Positions 3,752 through 11,711 of a DNA stretch of 64,000 nucleotides are shown piece after piece. The notes beneath the pieces are model-generated. The model was not told where the DNA came from. It was given only the letters and a program-made list of their open reading frames with translations, and ran no database searches. The DNA comes from Terriglobia bacterium. Its GTDB lineage: Bacteria > Acidobacteriota > Terriglobia > Terriglobales > SCQP01. The translations under genes were made by a program, and so were the position numbers. Each line of letters begins with the position of its first letter. Position 1 is the first letter of the stretch. The stretch covers positions 1 through 64,000 of the forward strand of contig JAJPKR010000061.1 in the NCBI GenBank assembly GCA_021323595.1. Direction: 5' to 3'.

Positions 3752-3764
3752 CTTAAACATTTAG
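3752..3764. promoter_or_regulatory. Candidate BlaI operator 1
   Basis: CTTAA-ACA-TTTAG is an imperfect dyad of the form CTWAA-N3-TTWAG. The same dyad recurs at 3804-3816. It abuts a TTGACA hexamer (3765-3770), so a bound repressor would block RNA polymerase. Assignment to BlaI rests on the position directly before blaI and on the two-copy pattern. Confidence 0.6.
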
Positions 3765-3794
3765 TTGACAGCGGGCCGGGAGGGGAGCTAGGCT
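3765..3794 (+). promoter_or_regulatory. Candidate promoter of the BlaI-M56 cluster
   Basis: A perfect -35 hexamer TTGACA (3765-3770) is followed after 18 bases by a weak -10, TAGGCT (3789-3794). It lies between the two CTTAA-N3-TTTAG dyads, as expected for an autorepressed blaI promoter. The -10 matches only three of six positions, so this is moderate evidence. Confidence 0.45.
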
Positions 3795-3803
3795 CGGTGA
3801 GGT

Positions 3804-3816
3804 CTTAAGGATTTAG
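3804..3816. promoter_or_regulatory. Candidate BlaI operator 2
   Basis: CTTAA-GGA-TTTAG repeats the dyad of operator 1, 52 bases further on and just before the GTG start of the BlaI-type gene. With the flanking T either side, the match to operator 1 extends to TCTTAA-N2-ATTTAGTT. The placement downstream of the predicted transcription start suits a roadblock operator. Confidence 0.6.
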
Positions 3817-3834
3817 TTTTTCGGAGCCGATCGC

Positions 3835-4233
3835 GTGCCGCGCAAGCCCTCCACCACACTCACCGAAGCCGAGCAGCGCCTGATGGAAGTGCTCTGGCGC
3901 CGGGGCGAAGCCACCGTCGCCGAGGTCGTCGAGGCGCTGCCGGCCGAACTCGGCCTCGCTTACAACACCGTGCTGACCACGCTGCGCATCCTCGAACGCA
4001 AGGGCTATCTGCGGCACCGGCAGCGGCCGGGCGCGCGCGCGTTCGTCTATCGCCCGCGCGTGGCCCGCGCCGAAGCGCGGCGGCGCGCGGTGCGCGACCT
4101 GCTGCGCCGCTTTTTCGGCCAGTCCCACGAAGCGCTGGTGTTGAATCTTTTGCAAGACGAGCCGCTGGAGGAGGCCGAGCGGAAGCGGATCCGCGCCCTG
4201 CTCGACGCCATGGACCGGGAGGCAAAGTCATGA
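3835..4233 (+). CDS. BlaI/MecI/CopY-family repressor
   Basis: A 132-residue winged-helix repressor. The family signature runs TEAEQRLMEVLWRRGEATVAEVVEALP, then LAYNTVLTTLRILERKGYLRHRQ (recognition helix and wing), then FVYRPRV and a C-terminal dimerisation helix region ending LEEAERKRIRALLDAM. In the known systems this protein dimerises on operator dyads and is inactivated by proteolysis triggered by its membrane partner. The next gene is such a partner (M56 peptidase), overlapping by 4 bases (ATGA). Start is GTG, preceded by two candidate operators, implying autoregulation. The cleavage site cannot be identified by eye. Confidence 0.93.
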   Translation: MPRKPSTTLTEAEQRLMEVLWRRGEATVAEVVEALPAELGLAYNTVLTTLRILERKGYLRHRQRPGARAFVYRPRVARAEARRRAVRDLLRRFFGQSHEALVLNLLQDEPLEEAERKRIRALLDAMDREAKS

Positions 4234-6167
4234 ATTTCTGGCTGGCAACGCTCAATCAGGCGGCAGCGACCGGGCTGGCGGCGCTGCTGAACACGCTTTG
4301 GTACGCGGCGGCGGTGGTGGCGCTGGCTTGGCTGCTGCTGCCGCGCTGGCAGCGGCTGAACGCGGCCACGCGCTATTGGATCTGGACCGGAGTGCTCGGC
4401 TTCATGCTCGCGCTGCCTTTTTTGCCCTCAGCCCTGGCGCACCGCGCCGCAGCGGCCGCGCCCACTCCGGCGGCGGCGCAACGGCTCGCGACCGCGGCGG
4501 CGCCGCCGGCGGCCGGCGTGCAGCCCGCGAAGACCTTCGTCACCCTCGAGGCCGCGCCGCGCGCCCGGTTCTGGCCGCTCTGGCTGCTGCTGGCTTGGGC
4601 CGTCGCGGCGGCTTGGAAGCTGCGCGGCATCGCCCGCGCACTCGCGGAGGTGCGCCGCCTCAAGCGCGCCGCCGCGCCGGTGAGGGAAGCCGCCTTGCCG
4701 CTCCATCTCGCCCGCAAGGTGCGCCTGCTGGCCTCCGGCGAGGCCGCCTCGCCGATGGCGGTCGGCTATCGGAGCCCGGCGGTGATCATCTCGCCGCAGA
4801 TGCTCTCACGGCTGGAAGAGCGGGAGCGCCAGGACGTGCTCTTGCACGAGCTCGCGCACCTGGCCCGCTACGACGACTGGCTGGCCTTGCTCGTGGCCGG
4901 CTGCGGCGCGCTGCTGGCGCTGCATCCGCTGGCCGGCGCGGTGATCGGCCGCATCGAGCGCGAGCGGGAAATGGCCTGCGACGATTTCGTGGTGGCGCGC
5001 ACCGGCCGCGCACGCGGCTATGCGCGCAGCTTGGCGCGCCTGCACGATTTGCGCTGCGCCGCCGGCACGCGGCTGCTCGCGGCCGGCCTGGTCGGCCGGC
5101 GCTCGGCGCTGCGGGCGCGGCTGGAGTCGCTCGCGCGCCGCGGCCGCGGCTTTTCCCCGCGGCCGTCGTTCGCCGGCCTGGGCGCCGGGGCTTTGCTGCT
5201 GGCGCTGCTGCTCGCCGCCGCGGGGCTGATTCCCAATTGGATCGCGATTGCCGCCGGGCAAGAGGCCGCGCCACGCGCGTTCTACGCCGCCTCGATCAAG
5301 CCCGGCGACGCCAACGCCCACCAGCGCATGCTGCAACTGCTGCCCGGCGGGCGCTTCAATGCGATCAACGTCAGCTTGAAAACGCTCGTGCTCTACGCCT
5401 ACGACATCAAGCCCGCGCAGCTCGAGCGACTGCCCTCGTGGGCGAGCTCCAGGCTCTATTCAATTCAAGCGGTGCCGCCGCCGAACGGGCCCAACTTGCC
5501 GCGCGCCGAAGGCAGCGACGCGATACGCGAAATGCTGCGCACGCTGCTCGCCGATCGTTTCGGGCTGCGGGTGCACCGGGTGACCAAACAGATGGACGTG
5601 GATGAGCTCGTCGTCGCCAAGGGCGGGCCGAAGTTGAAGCCCGCGCCGCCCGGCGAGCGCCTGATCCCGCCCAGCGGCGCGCCGCAGCCGGCGGCCGGCG
5701 AGAAGGCGATGCGCAAACCCGCCGGCGCCGAGCACGATGCCTCCGTTGGCGGCGAGGAGATGCTGCGCGGCAGCGGCGGCAAGCCGGCGTTGGTGCGCAT
5801 GATGCCCGGCCAATTCATCGGCCAGGACGCGCCGCTGGAATCGCTGGTCTCCATCCTCTCGCGGGATCTCGGCCGCATGGTCGTGGATCGCACCGGCCTA
5901 ACCGGCCGCTACGACTTCACGCTGACTTGGAGGCCGGGACCGGGCGAGCGGGGAATGGCGGCCTTCGCCGGGCGGCCCACGGACCAGCCGGTGGGCGGCG
6001 CACCGGTACCCGATGCGCCGGGCCCCGGCCCCGCACCCGAAGTGAATTTCACCGGTCCTTCGCTCTTCACCGCGCTGCGCGAGCAGTTGGGCCTCGAGCT
6101 AAAGCCCGCCAAAGGTCCGGTCGGGGTGATCGTGGTGGATCACGTCGCTCCGCCCACGCCCAATTAG
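4230..6167 (+). CDS. M56-family membrane metallopeptidase with C-terminal TIGR03435 (DUF3738) domain
   Basis: A 645-residue BlaR1/MecR1-like sensor-protease. Predicted TM segments lie at about 15-37, 50-66 and 113-130. The zinc site HELAH is at 206-210, with a likely third ligand E247 in EREMACDD, and a last TM at about 312-336. The outer part (about 345-645) is not a penicillin-binding sensor but a TIGR03435-type domain (RAFYAASIKPGDA, GGRFNAINVSLKTLVLYAYDI, LLADRFGLRVHRVTKQM, VVDRTGLTGRYDFTLTW). The family picture is that an external cue activates the zinc site, which leads to BlaI inactivation. Here the cue is unknown. It overlaps blaI by 4 bases and is followed 30 bases later by the Oar receptor gene, suggesting one regulatory unit. 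Confidence 0.9.
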   Translation: MNFWLATLNQAAATGLAALLNTLWYAAAVVALAWLLLPRWQRLNAATRYWIWTGVLGFMLALPFLPSALAHRAAAAAPTPAAAQRLATAAAPPAAGVQPAKTFVTLEAAPRARFWPLWLLLAWAVAAAWKLRGIARALAEVRRLKRAAAPVREAALPLHLARKVRLLASGEAASPMAVGYRSPAVIISPQMLSRLEERERQDVLLHELAHLARYDDWLALLVAGCGALLALHPLAGAVIGRIEREREMACDDFVVARTGRARGYARSLARLHDLRCAAGTRLLAAGLVGRRSALRARLESLARRGRGFSPRPSFAGLGAGALLLALLLAAAGLIPNWIAIAAGQEAAPRAFYAASIKPGDANAHQRMLQLLPGGRFNAINVSLKTLVLYAYDIKPAQLERLPSWASSRLYSIQAVPPPNGPNLPRAEGSDAIREMLRTLLADRFGLRVHRVTKQMDVDELVVAKGGPKLKPAPPGERLIPPSGAPQPAAGEKAMRKPAGAEHDASVGGEEMLRGSGGKPALVRMMPGQFIGQDAPLESLVSILSRDLGRMVVDRTGLTGRYDFTLTWRPGPGERGMAAFAGRPTDQPVGGAPVPDAPGPGPAPEVNFTGPSLFTALREQLGLELKPAKGPVGVIVVDHVAPPTPN

Positions 6168-6197
6168 CGCGCCGGCAGCCCAGCCCGAGAGGACGCC

Positions 6198-9185
6198 GTG
6201 AAGCATCGGTCCCTATGCGTGGCCGCGTTGGCGCTCGCCTGTTCGCCCGTCCTGCGCGCGCGGCAGGCGGCGCCCGCCTCGGCGCGGCTGATCGGGACGG
6301 TGCGCTACCAGGGCCAGCCCGTGCCCGGCGCGAGCGTCCGCGCGCGGCAAGGCGCGACGACCCGCGCCGCCGTGACCGGCGAGGACGGCCGCTACGAGAT
6401 CCCCGGCCTCGAGCCCGGCGCGGCGCTGATTCGCGTGGTCATGACCGGTTTCGCCATGCAGCAGCGCGCGGTAACGCTTGCCGCCGGCGCCACCGCCGAA
6501 GACTGGGAGTTGGTCCTGCTGCCGGCGCCGGCGGCGAACAGCGCGGGCGGCTTGGAAGGCCGCGCGCCGCCCGCGCGCGCCTCCCAGCCAGCCGCCGCCG
6601 CGCCGCCGGCGGCCTCGCCCTCACTCGCGCCGGGCGACCTGGCCGGCGCGAATCCCACCGCCGCGCCGGCGCTGGCGATCAACGGCAGCGTGCAGAACGG
6701 GGCGGCTTCGCCCTACTTCCAGCTCCCCGCCTTCGGCAACGATCGCCGCGGGCAGCATTCGCTCTACAACGGCGCGGTGGGCGGCATCTTCGGACTCTCG
6801 GCGCTCGACGCCCGCCCGTTCTCGCTCACCGGCCAGACCTCGCCCAAACCCGCTTGCGCTCATATCACCGGCCTCGCGCAGATCGGCGGCCCGCTGCTCT
6901 TCCCCGGCGTCTTCACGGCGGCGAACGCGCCGATGGTCTTCGCCGCGTATCAGATGACGCGCAGCCGCAACGATACGATCGGCGCCGGCTTGGTGCCCAC
7001 GATTGCGGAGCGCAGCGGCGACCTCTCGCAGTTTCCGGAGCCGATCGTGAACCCGCAAACCGGCCAGCCGTTCCCCGGCAATCAACTGCCCGGCATCAAT
7101 GCGCAAGCGGCGGCACTGCTGAAGCTTTACCCGCTGCCGAACGCGAGCGGCGACCGCTTCAATTACCAAACCGCGATCGTCGCCATCACCCACGAAGACG
7201 ATCTGCAGACGCGGGTCATGAAGCGCGTCAACGACGGCAATCAACTGGCCGGCGACTTCGCCCTGATGAGCTCTCGCGCCTCCTCCCCGAATCTCTTCGG
7301 CTTTCTCGACACGACCGACACGCTCGGTCTCAACGCCTCGCTGCGCTGGCGCCACGCCTTTTCCCCCCGCCTTCGCGGCACGCTCTCGTTTCCCTTCAGC
7401 CGCTTGCGCATTCGCCAGGCGCCGTTTTTCGCCGGCCGCGAAGACATCTCCGGCGCCGCCGGCATCGCCGGCAACGATCCGTCCCCGGCGGCCTGGGGTC
7501 CGCCGGCGCTGGCCTTCGCCGGCGGCCTCGCCGGGCTCAACGACATGCTGCCCGCCGACAATCGCGACCAGACGGCGGCAATCTCCTATGCCGGCTTGTG
7601 GAATCACGGCGATCATGACTTCGCGTTCGGCGGCGACGCGCGCCGGCTCGAGTTCAACCGCCGGGAACAGCAAAATCCGCGCGGGCAACTCGTCTTCAAC
7701 GGCGCGGCCAGCGGCAACGACCTCGCCGACTTCTTGCTCGGCATTCCCGACGCGGCCTCGCTGGCCTTCGGCAACGCCGACAAGTATTTTCGCGAGTCGA
7801 GCTACGACGCCTATTTCGTGGACGACGGGCACCTCGGCCCCGGCCTCTCGCTCAACCTGGGGCTGCGCTGGGAATACGCCGCGCCCATCACCGAGCGGCA
7901 GGACCGGCTGGTGAACCTCGACCTCGCGCCCGGCTTCACCGCCGCCGCGCCGGTGCTCGCGGCGCAGCCGCGCGGGCCGCTTACCGGCGCGGTTTACCCA
8001 CGCTCGCTCGTGCGCCCCGATCGGCGCGCCTTCGAGCCGAGGCTGGGCCTGGCGTGGCAGCCCTTCGCCGCCTCCTCGCTGCTGGTGCGCGCCGGCTACG
8101 GCGTGTACTTCAACACGTCGGTGTATCAAGCGCTGGCGGCGCAGATGGCGCAGCAGGCGCCGCTCTCGACCAGCTTCAGCGCCGCCTACAATCCCGCCCG
8201 GCCTTGGACGCTGGCCAACGTTTTTTCCAGCCTCGCGCCGGCCTCGCAAGACCTCTTCGCTCTCGACCCCAACTTCCGCCGCGGCTACGTGCAGACGTGG
8301 GACGCTTCCCTGCAGCAGGATCTGCCCGCCGCTTGGACGATGACCCTCACCTACCTCGGCAGCGAGGGCGTGCACGCCCCGCAGGAGATCTTGCCCAACA
8401 CCTATCCGGCCGGCGCCGCCAATCCTTGCCCGAGCTGCCCGATCGGCTTCCTCTATATAAGTTCAGGCGGCAGCGCCGCCTACGAGTCGGGCCAGGTGGA
8501 ACTGCAGCGCCGCTTCGCCGGCGGCTTGGCCGGCGATCTGCAATACACCTACAGCAAGGCCCTGGATGACGGCGCGTTGGGCGGCGGCCAGCCCGCAGCC
8601 TTCATCGCGCAGAATTGGCGCGCCGCCGATGGCGACCGCGCGCTTTCCAACACCGACCAGCGCCATCGCCTCACGGCCACGGCGCAGTACACGACCGGGC
8701 TCGGCCCGCGCGGCGGCGCGCTGCTGGGCGGCTGGCGCGGCCTGCTTTACAAGGGCTGGACGCTGCAGGCGCAACTCACGGCGGGCAGCGGCCTGCCGCT
8801 CACGCCCGTGACGTTCGCGATCGTGCCCGGCACCGGCGTCACCCAGGTCGTCCGCCCTTCGCTCACCGGCGCTCCGCTCTATGCCGCGCCCGCCGGGCTC
8901 TTTCTCAATCCCGCCGCATACGCGCCGCCGCCGCCGGGCGCCTGGGGCGATGCCGGACGCAACTCCATCACCGGCCCCAGCCAGTTCAATCTCGACATGG
9001 CGCTCCAGCGCAGCTTCTTCCTCCGCGACCGCCTGAGCTGCAATTTTCGCTTGGAGGCCGACAACGTCTTGAATCACGTCGTCTTCCCCAGTTGGGACAC
9101 CGTCGCCGGCAGCGCGCAATTCGGCCTGCCGCTCGCCGCCAACCCCATGCGCAGCATCAAGACTTACCTGCGCCTGGTGTTCTAG
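6198..9185 (+). CDS. Oar-like TonB-dependent receptor with carboxypeptidase-regulatory N-terminal domain
   Basis: A 995-residue outer-membrane protein. It has a signal peptide (about 1-25), a CarboxypepD-regulatory/CNA-B-like beta-sandwich (about 30-110: LIGTVRYQGQPVPGASV, TGEDGRYEIPGLEPG), a Pro/Ala linker, then a long beta-barrel. Barrel segments resemble Oar proteins: LYNGAVGGIFGLSALDARPFSLTG, NQLPGINAQAAALLKLYPLPN, LNLGLRWEYA, PRLGLAWQPF and a final aromatic residue (RLVF). It likely imports or binds a large substrate at the cell surface. No clear TonB box or complete plug signature was seen. SD-like GAGAGGA precedes the ATG. It lies between the M56 gene and the VWA gene (2-base gap), so it is probably co-regulated with BlaI. 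Confidence 0.85.
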   Translation: MKHRSLCVAALALACSPVLRARQAAPASARLIGTVRYQGQPVPGASVRARQGATTRAAVTGEDGRYEIPGLEPGAALIRVVMTGFAMQQRAVTLAAGATAEDWELVLLPAPAANSAGGLEGRAPPARASQPAAAAPPAASPSLAPGDLAGANPTAAPALAINGSVQNGAASPYFQLPAFGNDRRGQHSLYNGAVGGIFGLSALDARPFSLTGQTSPKPACAHITGLAQIGGPLLFPGVFTAANAPMVFAAYQMTRSRNDTIGAGLVPTIAERSGDLSQFPEPIVNPQTGQPFPGNQLPGINAQAAALLKLYPLPNASGDRFNYQTAIVAITHEDDLQTRVMKRVNDGNQLAGDFALMSSRASSPNLFGFLDTTDTLGLNASLRWRHAFSPRLRGTLSFPFSRLRIRQAPFFAGREDISGAAGIAGNDPSPAAWGPPALAFAGGLAGLNDMLPADNRDQTAAISYAGLWNHGDHDFAFGGDARRLEFNRREQQNPRGQLVFNGAASGNDLADFLLGIPDAASLAFGNADKYFRESSYDAYFVDDGHLGPGLSLNLGLRWEYAAPITERQDRLVNLDLAPGFTAAAPVLAAQPRGPLTGAVYPRSLVRPDRRAFEPRLGLAWQPFAASSLLVRAGYGVYFNTSVYQALAAQMAQQAPLSTSFSAAYNPARPWTLANVFSSLAPASQDLFALDPNFRRGYVQTWDASLQQDLPAAWTMTLTYLGSEGVHAPQEILPNTYPAGAANPCPSCPIGFLYISSGGSAAYESGQVELQRRFAGGLAGDLQYTYSKALDDGALGGGQPAAFIAQNWRAADGDRALSNTDQRHRLTATAQYTTGLGPRGGALLGGWRGLLYKGWTLQAQLTAGSGLPLTPVTFAIVPGTGVTQVVRPSLTGAPLYAAPAGLFLNPAAYAPPPPGAWGDAGRNSITGPSQFNLDMALQRSFFLRDRLSCNFRLEADNVLNHVVFPSWDTVAGSAQFGLPLAANPMRSIKTYLRLVF

Positions 9186-9187
9186 CC

Positions 9188-11317
9188 ATGATCAGGGGCG
9201 GCAGCCGACAAGCGGGGCGCAGGCGAAGGGCGAAGGCCGCCGCCGGCCTGCTCGCGCTGCTGAGCGCGGGCGCCGTGGGCGGCGGGACGCGCGCCGCGGC
9301 CCAATCTCATCCCTACCAGTTCCAGGCCAACAGCCAATTGGTGATGGAGGCGGTGACCGTGACCGGCGCCGACGGAGCGCCGATCGCCGGGCTCACGGCG
9401 AGCGACTTCGTGGTGCTCGAAAACGGGGTGCCGCAGCGGCTCGCCATCTGCGAGTACCAGCAGTTCTCCGCCGCCGGGGCGCCGCCGCGCGCAAGCGCGC
9501 TGCCGCCCTCCGCGGCAGCCGCGCCCGGCATCACGCCGGAGAGCGCCGCCGGCGATTACTACCGCAACCGCCGTTTGCTGGTCCTGTATTTCGATCTGAC
9601 CTCCATGTCGGTGAGCGATCAGCTGCGCTCCCTGCAGGCGGCGCAGAAATACATCACCACCGAGATGCAGCCGAGCGATCTGGTGGCGATCCTCGCGTAC
9701 GAAGGCACGGCGGTCGAGGTCAAGCAAGACTTCACCGCCGATCGCGGCCGCCTCGAGCACGCCATCGCCAAGCTCGTTTACGAAGACGTCCTCGGCTATG
9801 ACGAGAACCCGAACGACGCCGCCACGCCCGACACCGGCAGCGCCTGGGGGCAAGACGACAGCGAGTTCTTCATCTTCAACACCAATCGCCAGTTGTCGGC
9901 GCTGCAGACGGCGGTGCAAATGCTGGCGCCGATCAGCGAGAAGAAATCGCTGGTTTATTTCGCCAGCGGCCTGCCGCTCAACGGCCTCGACAATCAAGCG
10001 CAACTGGCCGCCACCGAAGCCGCGGCGCTGCGCGCCAACGTCGCGCTGTTTCCCGTGGATGCGCGCGGGCTGGCAGCCGCGCCGCCGCTCGGCGACGCCA
10101 CGCAGGGCTCGCCGGGCGGCCTCGCCATGTACAACGGCGCCGCCGCCGAGGCCCTCGCCGGGCGCCGCGTGCGCTCGCAAGACACGCTCTACGCCCTCGC
10201 CGCCGATACCGGCGGGCGCGCGTTTTTCAACAACAACGACCTCAGCGCCGGCATCGTCCGCGCCGAGCGCGCCATCGCCAACTACTACCTGCTCGGCTAC
10301 TACAGCAGCGACGCGGCCCGCGACGGCCGCTATCGCCGCGTCCAGATCCGCTTGCGCGGCCATCCCGGCGCCCGGCTCGCTTACCGGCCCGGCTATTACG
10401 CCGCCAAGGCGTTTCGCAAGTTCACCGCCGCCGACAAGGAGCGCCAGCTCCTCGACGCGCTGCTGCTGCCCGATCCCATCACCGACCTGACGATCGACCT
10501 CGAGGTCAACTACTTCGAACTCGATTCCGCCGAGTACTTCGTGCCCATCGCCGCCAAGATTCCGGGCAGTGAACTGGCGCTGGCCAAGGCGGGCGGCGCG
10601 GAGAAGGCGCAGATCGACTTTATCGGGGAAATCAAAGACCCCTTCGGCAACACCATCGCCAACCTGCGCGACAAGATCGCCTTCAAGCTCGATCGCAGTT
10701 CAGCCGCGCAATTGGCGAAATCGCCGATCGAGTACACCGCCGGCTTCACACTGCTGCCGGGCGCGTATGCGATCAAGCTGCTGGCCCGCGACGACGCCAC
10801 CGGCCACATCGGCACCTATCTCGCGCACTTCACCATCCCCAACCTCGCGCAGTCCTCGCCGGTGCTGGCGCTGAGCAGCGTCGTGCTGGCGAGCCAGCGC
10901 GTGCCCTTCACCGCCGCGCTGTACAACGTCAAGGCGGCGAAGAATGAGCGCCAGCAGGCGGCGAATCCGCTGGTTTACGGCGGGGGGGAGCTGTTGCCGA
11001 GCGTGACACGGGTCTTCAGCCGCACGCAGACCCTGCAGGTCTTCGCCCAGGCCTACGAGCGCGGCGCCAAGACCGCCGAGCCTCTAATCGCCTATTTCGG
11101 TTTCTATCGCGGGCTCGAGGCCCGCCGCCTCGTGCTCGAGACGCCCACGATCACCGTCGCCGCGCCGCTGCGGCCGCCGGCCTATGCGCTGCCCATCCGG
11201 TTGAGCGTGCCGCTCGGGAACCTCGCCCCCGGCCCATACACATGCCAGCTCAGCGTTCTCGATCCTGCCGGGCACAAAGCGGCCTTCTGGCGCGCCCCCC
11301 TCTGGATCATTCCCTGA
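9188..11317 (+). CDS. Exported VWA-domain protein, TIGR03436 (acidobacterial VWFA-related) family
   Basis: About 709 residues. A basic N-terminus and hydrophobic stretch (LLALLSAGAVGG, then AAA-Q) form a signal peptide. A short beta domain follows (VMEAVTVTGADGAPIAGLTASDFVVLENGVPQ), which is the hallmark opening of TIGR03436 proteins. A von Willebrand A-like fold comes next (RLLVLYFDLTSMS, with DLTS-type MIDAS residues; PSDLVAILAYEGTAVEV; KKSLVYFASGLPLNG). The C-terminal part contains beta-rich segments (GYYAAKAFRKF onward). Known members are envelope proteins of unknown function, probably adhesive or scaffolding. The ATG starts 2 bases after the receptor stop, so expression is almost certainly coupled. 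Confidence 0.88.
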   Translation: MIRGGSRQAGRRRRAKAAAGLLALLSAGAVGGGTRAAAQSHPYQFQANSQLVMEAVTVTGADGAPIAGLTASDFVVLENGVPQRLAICEYQQFSAAGAPPRASALPPSAAAAPGITPESAAGDYYRNRRLLVLYFDLTSMSVSDQLRSLQAAQKYITTEMQPSDLVAILAYEGTAVEVKQDFTADRGRLEHAIAKLVYEDVLGYDENPNDAATPDTGSAWGQDDSEFFIFNTNRQLSALQTAVQMLAPISEKKSLVYFASGLPLNGLDNQAQLAATEAAALRANVALFPVDARGLAAAPPLGDATQGSPGGLAMYNGAAAEALAGRRVRSQDTLYALAADTGGRAFFNNNDLSAGIVRAERAIANYYLLGYYSSDAARDGRYRRVQIRLRGHPGARLAYRPGYYAAKAFRKFTAADKERQLLDALLLPDPITDLTIDLEVNYFELDSAEYFVPIAAKIPGSELALAKAGGAEKAQIDFIGEIKDPFGNTIANLRDKIAFKLDRSSAAQLAKSPIEYTAGFTLLPGAYAIKLLARDDATGHIGTYLAHFTIPNLAQSSPVLALSSVVLASQRVPFTAALYNVKAAKNERQQAANPLVYGGGELLPSVTRVFSRTQTLQVFAQAYERGAKTAEPLIAYFGFYRGLEARRLVLETPTITVAAPLRPPAYALPIRLSVPLGNLAPGPYTCQLSVLDPAGHKAAFWRAPLWIIP

Positions 11318-11634: not shown

Positions 11635-11711
11635 TGGTCGGGACGGCCGGATTTGAACCGGCGACCACTTGCACCCCAAGCAAGTGCGCTACCAGGCTGC
11701 GCTACGTCCCG
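11635..11711 (-). tRNA. tRNA-Pro (anticodon GGG)
   Basis: A complete cloverleaf on the minus strand: acceptor CGGGACG pairs with CGTCCCG, D-stem GCGC/GCGC, anticodon stem CTTGC/GCAAG with loop TTGGGGT giving anticodon GGG, T-stem GCCGG/CCGGC with TTCAAAT loop, discriminator A and an encoded CCA. Length is 77 bases including CCA. It reads CCC/CCU proline codons, suiting a GC-rich genome. It stands alone between the VWA cluster and a VOC gene. Confidence 0.95.

Follow-up and report, generated by a model that had tools for sequence, protein, structure and literature searches.

The locus described here raises the question of what a BlaI/M56 pair controls, and what it senses, when it is followed by envelope genes. 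BlaI-type repressors and M56 membrane proteases elsewhere switch on penicillin resistance. In the DNA of a Terriglobia bacterium analyzed here, a stretch of 64,000 nucleotides termed the window, such a pair precedes the genes of an Oar-like barrel and a VWA protein. The initial annotation proposed that an external cue, read by the TIGR03435 domain of the M56 protein, triggers BlaI cleavage and induces a receptor and the VWA protein. Our analysis makes it fairly probable that the locus is a conserved envelope module under a BlaI/M56 switch, the sensor of which is the module's own periplasmic component. The locus contains the following features:

3752..3766, + strand: candidate BlaI operator copy 1, CTTAAACATTTAGTT, of a 15-mer direct repeat
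3765..3770, + strand: TTGACA, an exact hexamer and candidate -35 of the inferred blaI promoter
3804..3818, + strand: candidate BlaI operator copy 2, CTTAAGGATTTAGTT, starting 52 bp past the start of copy 1, about five helical turns
3835..4233, + strand: BlaI-family repressor (PF03965, Pfam Penicillinase_R 3.4e-32; ORF and family search)
4230..6167, + strand: whole M56-TIGR03435 gene (Peptidase_M56 5.4e-30; TIGR03435 2.6e-58)
4230..5264, + strand: M56 (BlaR1-type) metalloprotease part, residues 1-345, HELAH at 206
5265..6167, + strand: TIGR03435/DUF3738 domain, residues 346-645, presumably periplasmic
6198..9185, + strand: Oar-like outer-membrane barrel with CarboxypepD_reg N-terminus, no detectable plug and C-terminal F (OMP_b-brl_4 6e-157)
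9188..11317, + strand: TIGR03436 VWA protein with signal peptide, VWA domain and C-terminal Ig/FN3-like domains (TIGR03436 4e-66)

The ORF calls and family searches matched the four genes of the initial annotation, including their coordinates. All four lie head to tail on the + strand: blaI and the M56 gene overlap by 4 bases, gaps of 30 and 2 bases separate the M56 gene from the Oar gene and the Oar gene from the VWA gene, and a Shine-Dalgarno-like GAGAGGA precedes the Oar gene. The claimed identity of the outer domain of the M56 protein was borne out by a TIGR03435 match of 197.6 bits, compared with a curated cut-off of 40. For the VWA protein, the TIGR03436 match reached 223.7 bits (curated cut-off 81.25), and in the Oar protein both the PF13620 (CarboxypepD_reg) N-terminus and the PF25183 outer-membrane barrel were matched. 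The 3.55 Mb genome encodes three BlaI-like proteins, 14 TIGR03436 proteins and about 30 Oar proteins, and the single M56 and the single TIGR03435 found in it are both those of this locus. Just 3' of the four genes, a tRNA-Pro gene (anticodon GGG) is located at window positions 11635-11711 on the - strand; the ORF calls overlapping it are spurious.

The first two genes form a pair of the BlaI/BlaR1 type, in which the PF03965 repressor adjoins a PF05569 protease (5.4e-30) with an HExxH motif. In the protease part, HELAH at residue 206 is accompanied by a glutamate motif further downstream, EREREMACDDF, and a hydrophobic segment (residues 310-344) precedes the TIGR03435 domain, so that the topology predicted from these elements matches that of BlaR1. 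The penicillin-binding sensor domain of BlaR1 and MecR1 proper is absent from the window M56 protein, the outer domain of which is TIGR03435/DUF3738. A cell-wall or beta-lactam stress response as in BlaR1/MecR1, with the envelope module as output, would fit the observation that the BlaI and M56 lineage of the window elsewhere precedes an HtrA/DegP-like protease, which is suggestive of envelope stress. However, we regard such a response as very unlikely, because the outer domain is not penicillin-binding, the protein scores just 58 bits against a BlaR1 cut-off of 400, and the domain gave no significant match in the PDB.

To place the locus among its relatives, the VWA protein was searched against 396 genomes of the phylum, which yielded a group of orthologs with about 47-57% identity, and the fetched regions were annotated with profiles built in this analysis. 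The resulting clade comprised 27 loci, the window and 26 from relatives, not all of which are independent, since some genomes gave two loci. A locus with only a truncated VWA gene (L147) was left out of the 27, and the comparison of neighbourhoods did not extend to those same-family genomes whose VWA proteins are closest, as their contigs end at the cluster. Ten Oar-VWA pairs that are more distant and have sufficient sequence served as sister pairs. In all 27 clade loci the Oar gene lies directly upstream of the VWA gene, and a TIGR03435 gene directly upstream of Oar was found in 27 of 27 clade loci versus 0 of 10 sister pairs. The position of TIGR03435 is occupied by a DUF5666 protein in five of the ten sister pairs, in two of them with a score below the curated cut-off. 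The survey that the initial annotation had suggested thus revealed a neighbourhood conserved far beyond chance. The Oar and the VWA proteins each formed a clade with a support of 100, and the branching of the two trees largely agreed. Chance adjacency among expanded paralogous families, which might be suspected from the numbers of Oar and TIGR03436 genes in the genome and from the dozens of TIGR03435 matches in some relatives, is refuted by the conserved neighbourhood and the co-divergence of Oar and VWA, and its probability is negligible. The same genome contains a second Oar-VWA pair (L079, own contig C54, 2911-8708), which is accompanied neither by TIGR03435 nor by BlaI/M56. In two loci, Oar is directly preceded by a tandem array of four stand-alone TIGR03435 genes, spaced by 2-5 bases (L122, 9101-12533; L126, 9421-12883).

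The BlaI/M56 pair is distributed less regularly. An M56 gene was present in 10 of the 27 loci, nine of which also contained BlaI. The other 17 showed no M56; for 13 of these, more than 9 kb upstream was available, and four (L135, L138, L145, L146) are short contigs, so that M56 could lie beyond their ends.

Turning to the promoter, the 15-mer repeat CTTAANNATTTAGTT had, with up to one mismatch allowed, just two occurrences in the 3.55 Mb genome, both at the blaI promoter, and controls gave no match; a BlaI regulon at other places of the genome was therefore rejected. The two copies lie around TTGACA but form no clean palindrome or dyad, and a consensus scan found no good -10 for the TTGACA at 3765. 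Related BlaI-M56 loci without TIGR03435 carry AACTAATnnATTAGTT before blaI, and several loci with TIGR03435 fusions carry TACTA-n4-TAGTA at this place. The window repeats share only part of AACTAATnnATTAGTT: TTTAGTT of copy 1 resembles its right arm. The repeats are good candidates for BlaI operators. No repeat of this type precedes the Oar or the VWA gene, and any BlaI control of both would therefore run via a shared transcript. The tight operon spacing of -4, +30 and +2 and the confinement of the operator candidates to the blaI promoter both support the regulatory idea of the initial annotation in part. Alternatively, BlaI-M56 might regulate only itself, while Oar and VWA are transcribed from a promoter of their own, either within the M56 coding region or in the 30 bases before Oar. 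BlaI is absent from most related loci, in which the module must therefore use other promoters. For the window, however, the short gaps and the GAGAGGA before Oar speak against a separate promoter, as does a consensus sigma-70 scan, weak in such GC-rich DNA, that found no promoter-like site for Oar or VWA. That M56 genes of at least two lineages adjoin the operon, in 10 of the 27 loci, is a further argument against this alternative, which we consider improbable.

What, then, is TIGR03435? The family is named DUF3738 by Pfam, and no mention of TIGR03435, DUF3738 or TIGR03436 was found in the literature searched. In 22 of the 27 loci, the TIGR03435 next to Oar is encoded by a gene of its own, as a secreted protein; in the other five (window, L128, L134, L139, L144), it is part of the M56 protein, and the fused domain replaces the stand-alone copy. 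The stand-alone copies start with signal peptides and a few have a possible lipobox, so these proteins are probably periplasmic or secreted. In one relative (G140, L121), BlaI is followed by an M56 protein fused to CarboxypepD_reg and a TonB C-terminal domain (L121:5173-7458), and then by two stand-alone TIGR03435 genes, Oar and VWA. These gene arrangements indicate that TIGR03435 is a module component first and an M56 sensor in some lineages only. The view of TIGR03435 as simply the sensor of M56 does not account for these distributions. Likewise, we judge it unlikely that TIGR03435 serves solely to sense an extracellular ligand, with the cue inducing an uptake receptor together with a surface VWA protein. 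The BlaR1-like topology and the operon layout favour this model, but it is opposed by the separate secreted copies beside Oar, by the 17 loci in which no M56 was seen, and by an Oar clade without a detectable plug.

An AlphaFold model of the TIGR03435 domain of the window had a mean pLDDT of 82. It matched no fold in the PDB at E<=0.001, and therefore the structure points to no function; a sequence search against solved structures gave nothing significant. An STN-like domain of the secretin/TonB type, considered for its beta-alpha-beta pattern, found no support: none of 46 family members matched Pfam STN and no PDB fold match was found. In eight loci (L129, L130, L132, L137, L140-L143), many stand-alone copies are extended at the N-terminus by a further domain of about 100 residues (DITGDWQGTL...), for which no Pfam name was found at E<=0.01.

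Phylogenetic analyses were used to follow the attachment of BlaI-M56 to the module. The window M56 grouped, with a support of 96, with 21 M56 proteins without TIGR03435, and an HtrA-like protease was encoded by the next gene in nine of nine sampled cases among these 21; the window branch is long (1.4), which could affect its placement. The remaining M56-TIGR03435 fusions, except L009, formed a separate clade (support 99). When the M56 domains of 20 fusions, the window among them, were placed in a single clade, an AU test rejected this grouping (p=0.002). The BlaI tree agreed with the M56 tree, with weaker support near the window, and the window BlaI, which is 60% identical to that of L021, grouped with BlaI proteins of HtrA-linked pairs. 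The fused TIGR03435 domains did not form one clade either: AU tests gave p=8e-54, 3e-12 with the window left out and 3e-4 for a set of five. The fused domains of L139, L123/L124 and L127 grouped with stand-alone copies from the same or a closely related cluster. Because the M56 and BlaI lineages differ, the fused TIGR03435 domains do not form one clade and several of them group with local copies, these trees indicate that BlaI-M56 is a lineage-specific switch that was attached to the module at least twice, and that the sensor domain appears to have been drawn from local TIGR03435 copies. In nine loci of the same order (L006, L010-L012, L015, L018, L019, L028, L030), BlaI-M56 without TIGR03435 precedes an HtrA/DegP-like Trypsin_2 protease, often with PDZ, and many of these loci have a conserved GCTAACTAATnnATTAGTTG dyad before blaI. 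HtrA-linked BlaI-M56 is possibly an envelope-stress switch.

The downstream proteins were also analyzed. A plug profile made from other Oars, mostly of this genome, reached 19.7 bits or more in 14 of the 16 other Oars that had been held out, and the two low scorers are maybe truncated sequences. In contrast, it scored at most 0.5 bits in all 35 VWA-paired Oars (27/27 of this clade and 8/8 sister Oars), and the window Oar gave no score. The designation as an outer-membrane receptor is doubtful because this Oar clade is without a detectable plug domain. Like outer-membrane proteins, the barrel has F or Y as its last residue. In the model of the VWA protein, the VWA domain matched that of ANTXR2 and the C-terminal Ig/FN3-like domains matched RbmA and the Ig domains of PrgB, whereby the whole-chain TM-scores were low. 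At the MIDAS site the first aspartate is invariant, and the motif is D-x-x-x-M instead of DxSxS. The absence of a plug and the VWA/Ig architecture hint at export or display rather than at a classical receptor. The Oar of Myxococcus xanthus, a TBDT, is required for the secretion of PopC (PMC6434023); with this precedent, it is reasonable to guess that the VWA protein may be exported or displayed.

Together, these findings suggest that a three-protein envelope module, TIGR03435 - Oar - TIGR03436 VWA, was placed under a BlaI/M56 proteolytic switch. BlaI would repress a single promoter ahead of blaI. A change of state of the periplasmic TIGR03435 domain would activate the M56 protease, which would lead to BlaI cleavage as in BlaR1/BlaI and to synthesis of the whole transcript. 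As TIGR03435 would itself be the module's periplasmic component, and normally is a separate secreted protein, the switch would report on the module or its substrate, and not act as a dedicated environmental receptor. The apparently plug-less Oar would most likely export or display the VWA-Ig protein at the surface; export of the VWA protein through Oar is the most speculative part of the explanation. From the regulatory idea of the initial annotation, the BlaR1-like architecture, the operon and its conservation are retained, whereas the sensor would be a co-opted module component and the target an envelope module. A more far-reaching version can be put forward only tentatively: in an undescribed envelope module, a plug-less Oar would export or display the VWA-Ig protein with a periplasmic TIGR03435 partner, and BlaI-M56 would have been captured repeatedly and the partner fused to it as sensor, such that the state of the partner determines whether more of the machine is made. 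If true, a BlaR1/BlaI proteolytic switch would be used outside antibiotic resistance, and its sensor would be a component of the system under its control. The orphan acidobacterial families TIGR03435 and TIGR03436 are placed in one testable context, as parts of a three-protein module whose Oar barrel is modified.

Several known systems resemble the locus in part. BlaI/BlaR1 and MecI/MecR1 also combine a repressor and an M56 protease in one operon, the membrane protease likewise has a C-terminal extracytoplasmic domain, and their operator sites are at the repressor promoter, where the window has operator-like candidates. However, the outer domain in the window is TIGR03435 instead of a penicillin-binding domain, the downstream genes encode Oar and VWA and not beta-lactamase or PBP2a, and the window proteins score far under the curated BlaR1, BlaI and MecI cut-offs. 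The HtrA-linked BlaI-M56 pairs of the same order, which are followed by a Trypsin_2/PDZ protease, include the proteins most closely related to the BlaI and M56 of the window and have the AACTAATnnATTAGTT dyad before blaI, but differ by the lack of a TIGR03435 domain and another downstream gene. The sister Oar-TIGR03436 pairs, e.g. that on contig C54, share with the window clade the Oar-VWA pair and the absence of the plug profile; unlike the window, they are without TIGR03435 and BlaI/M56, and several have DUF5666 instead. Although the window clade differs from the M. xanthus Oar in having no detectable plug profile and in being paired with VWA and TIGR03435, the M. xanthus protein combines a CarboxypepD_reg N-terminal extension with a large outer-membrane barrel, as does the Oar of the window.
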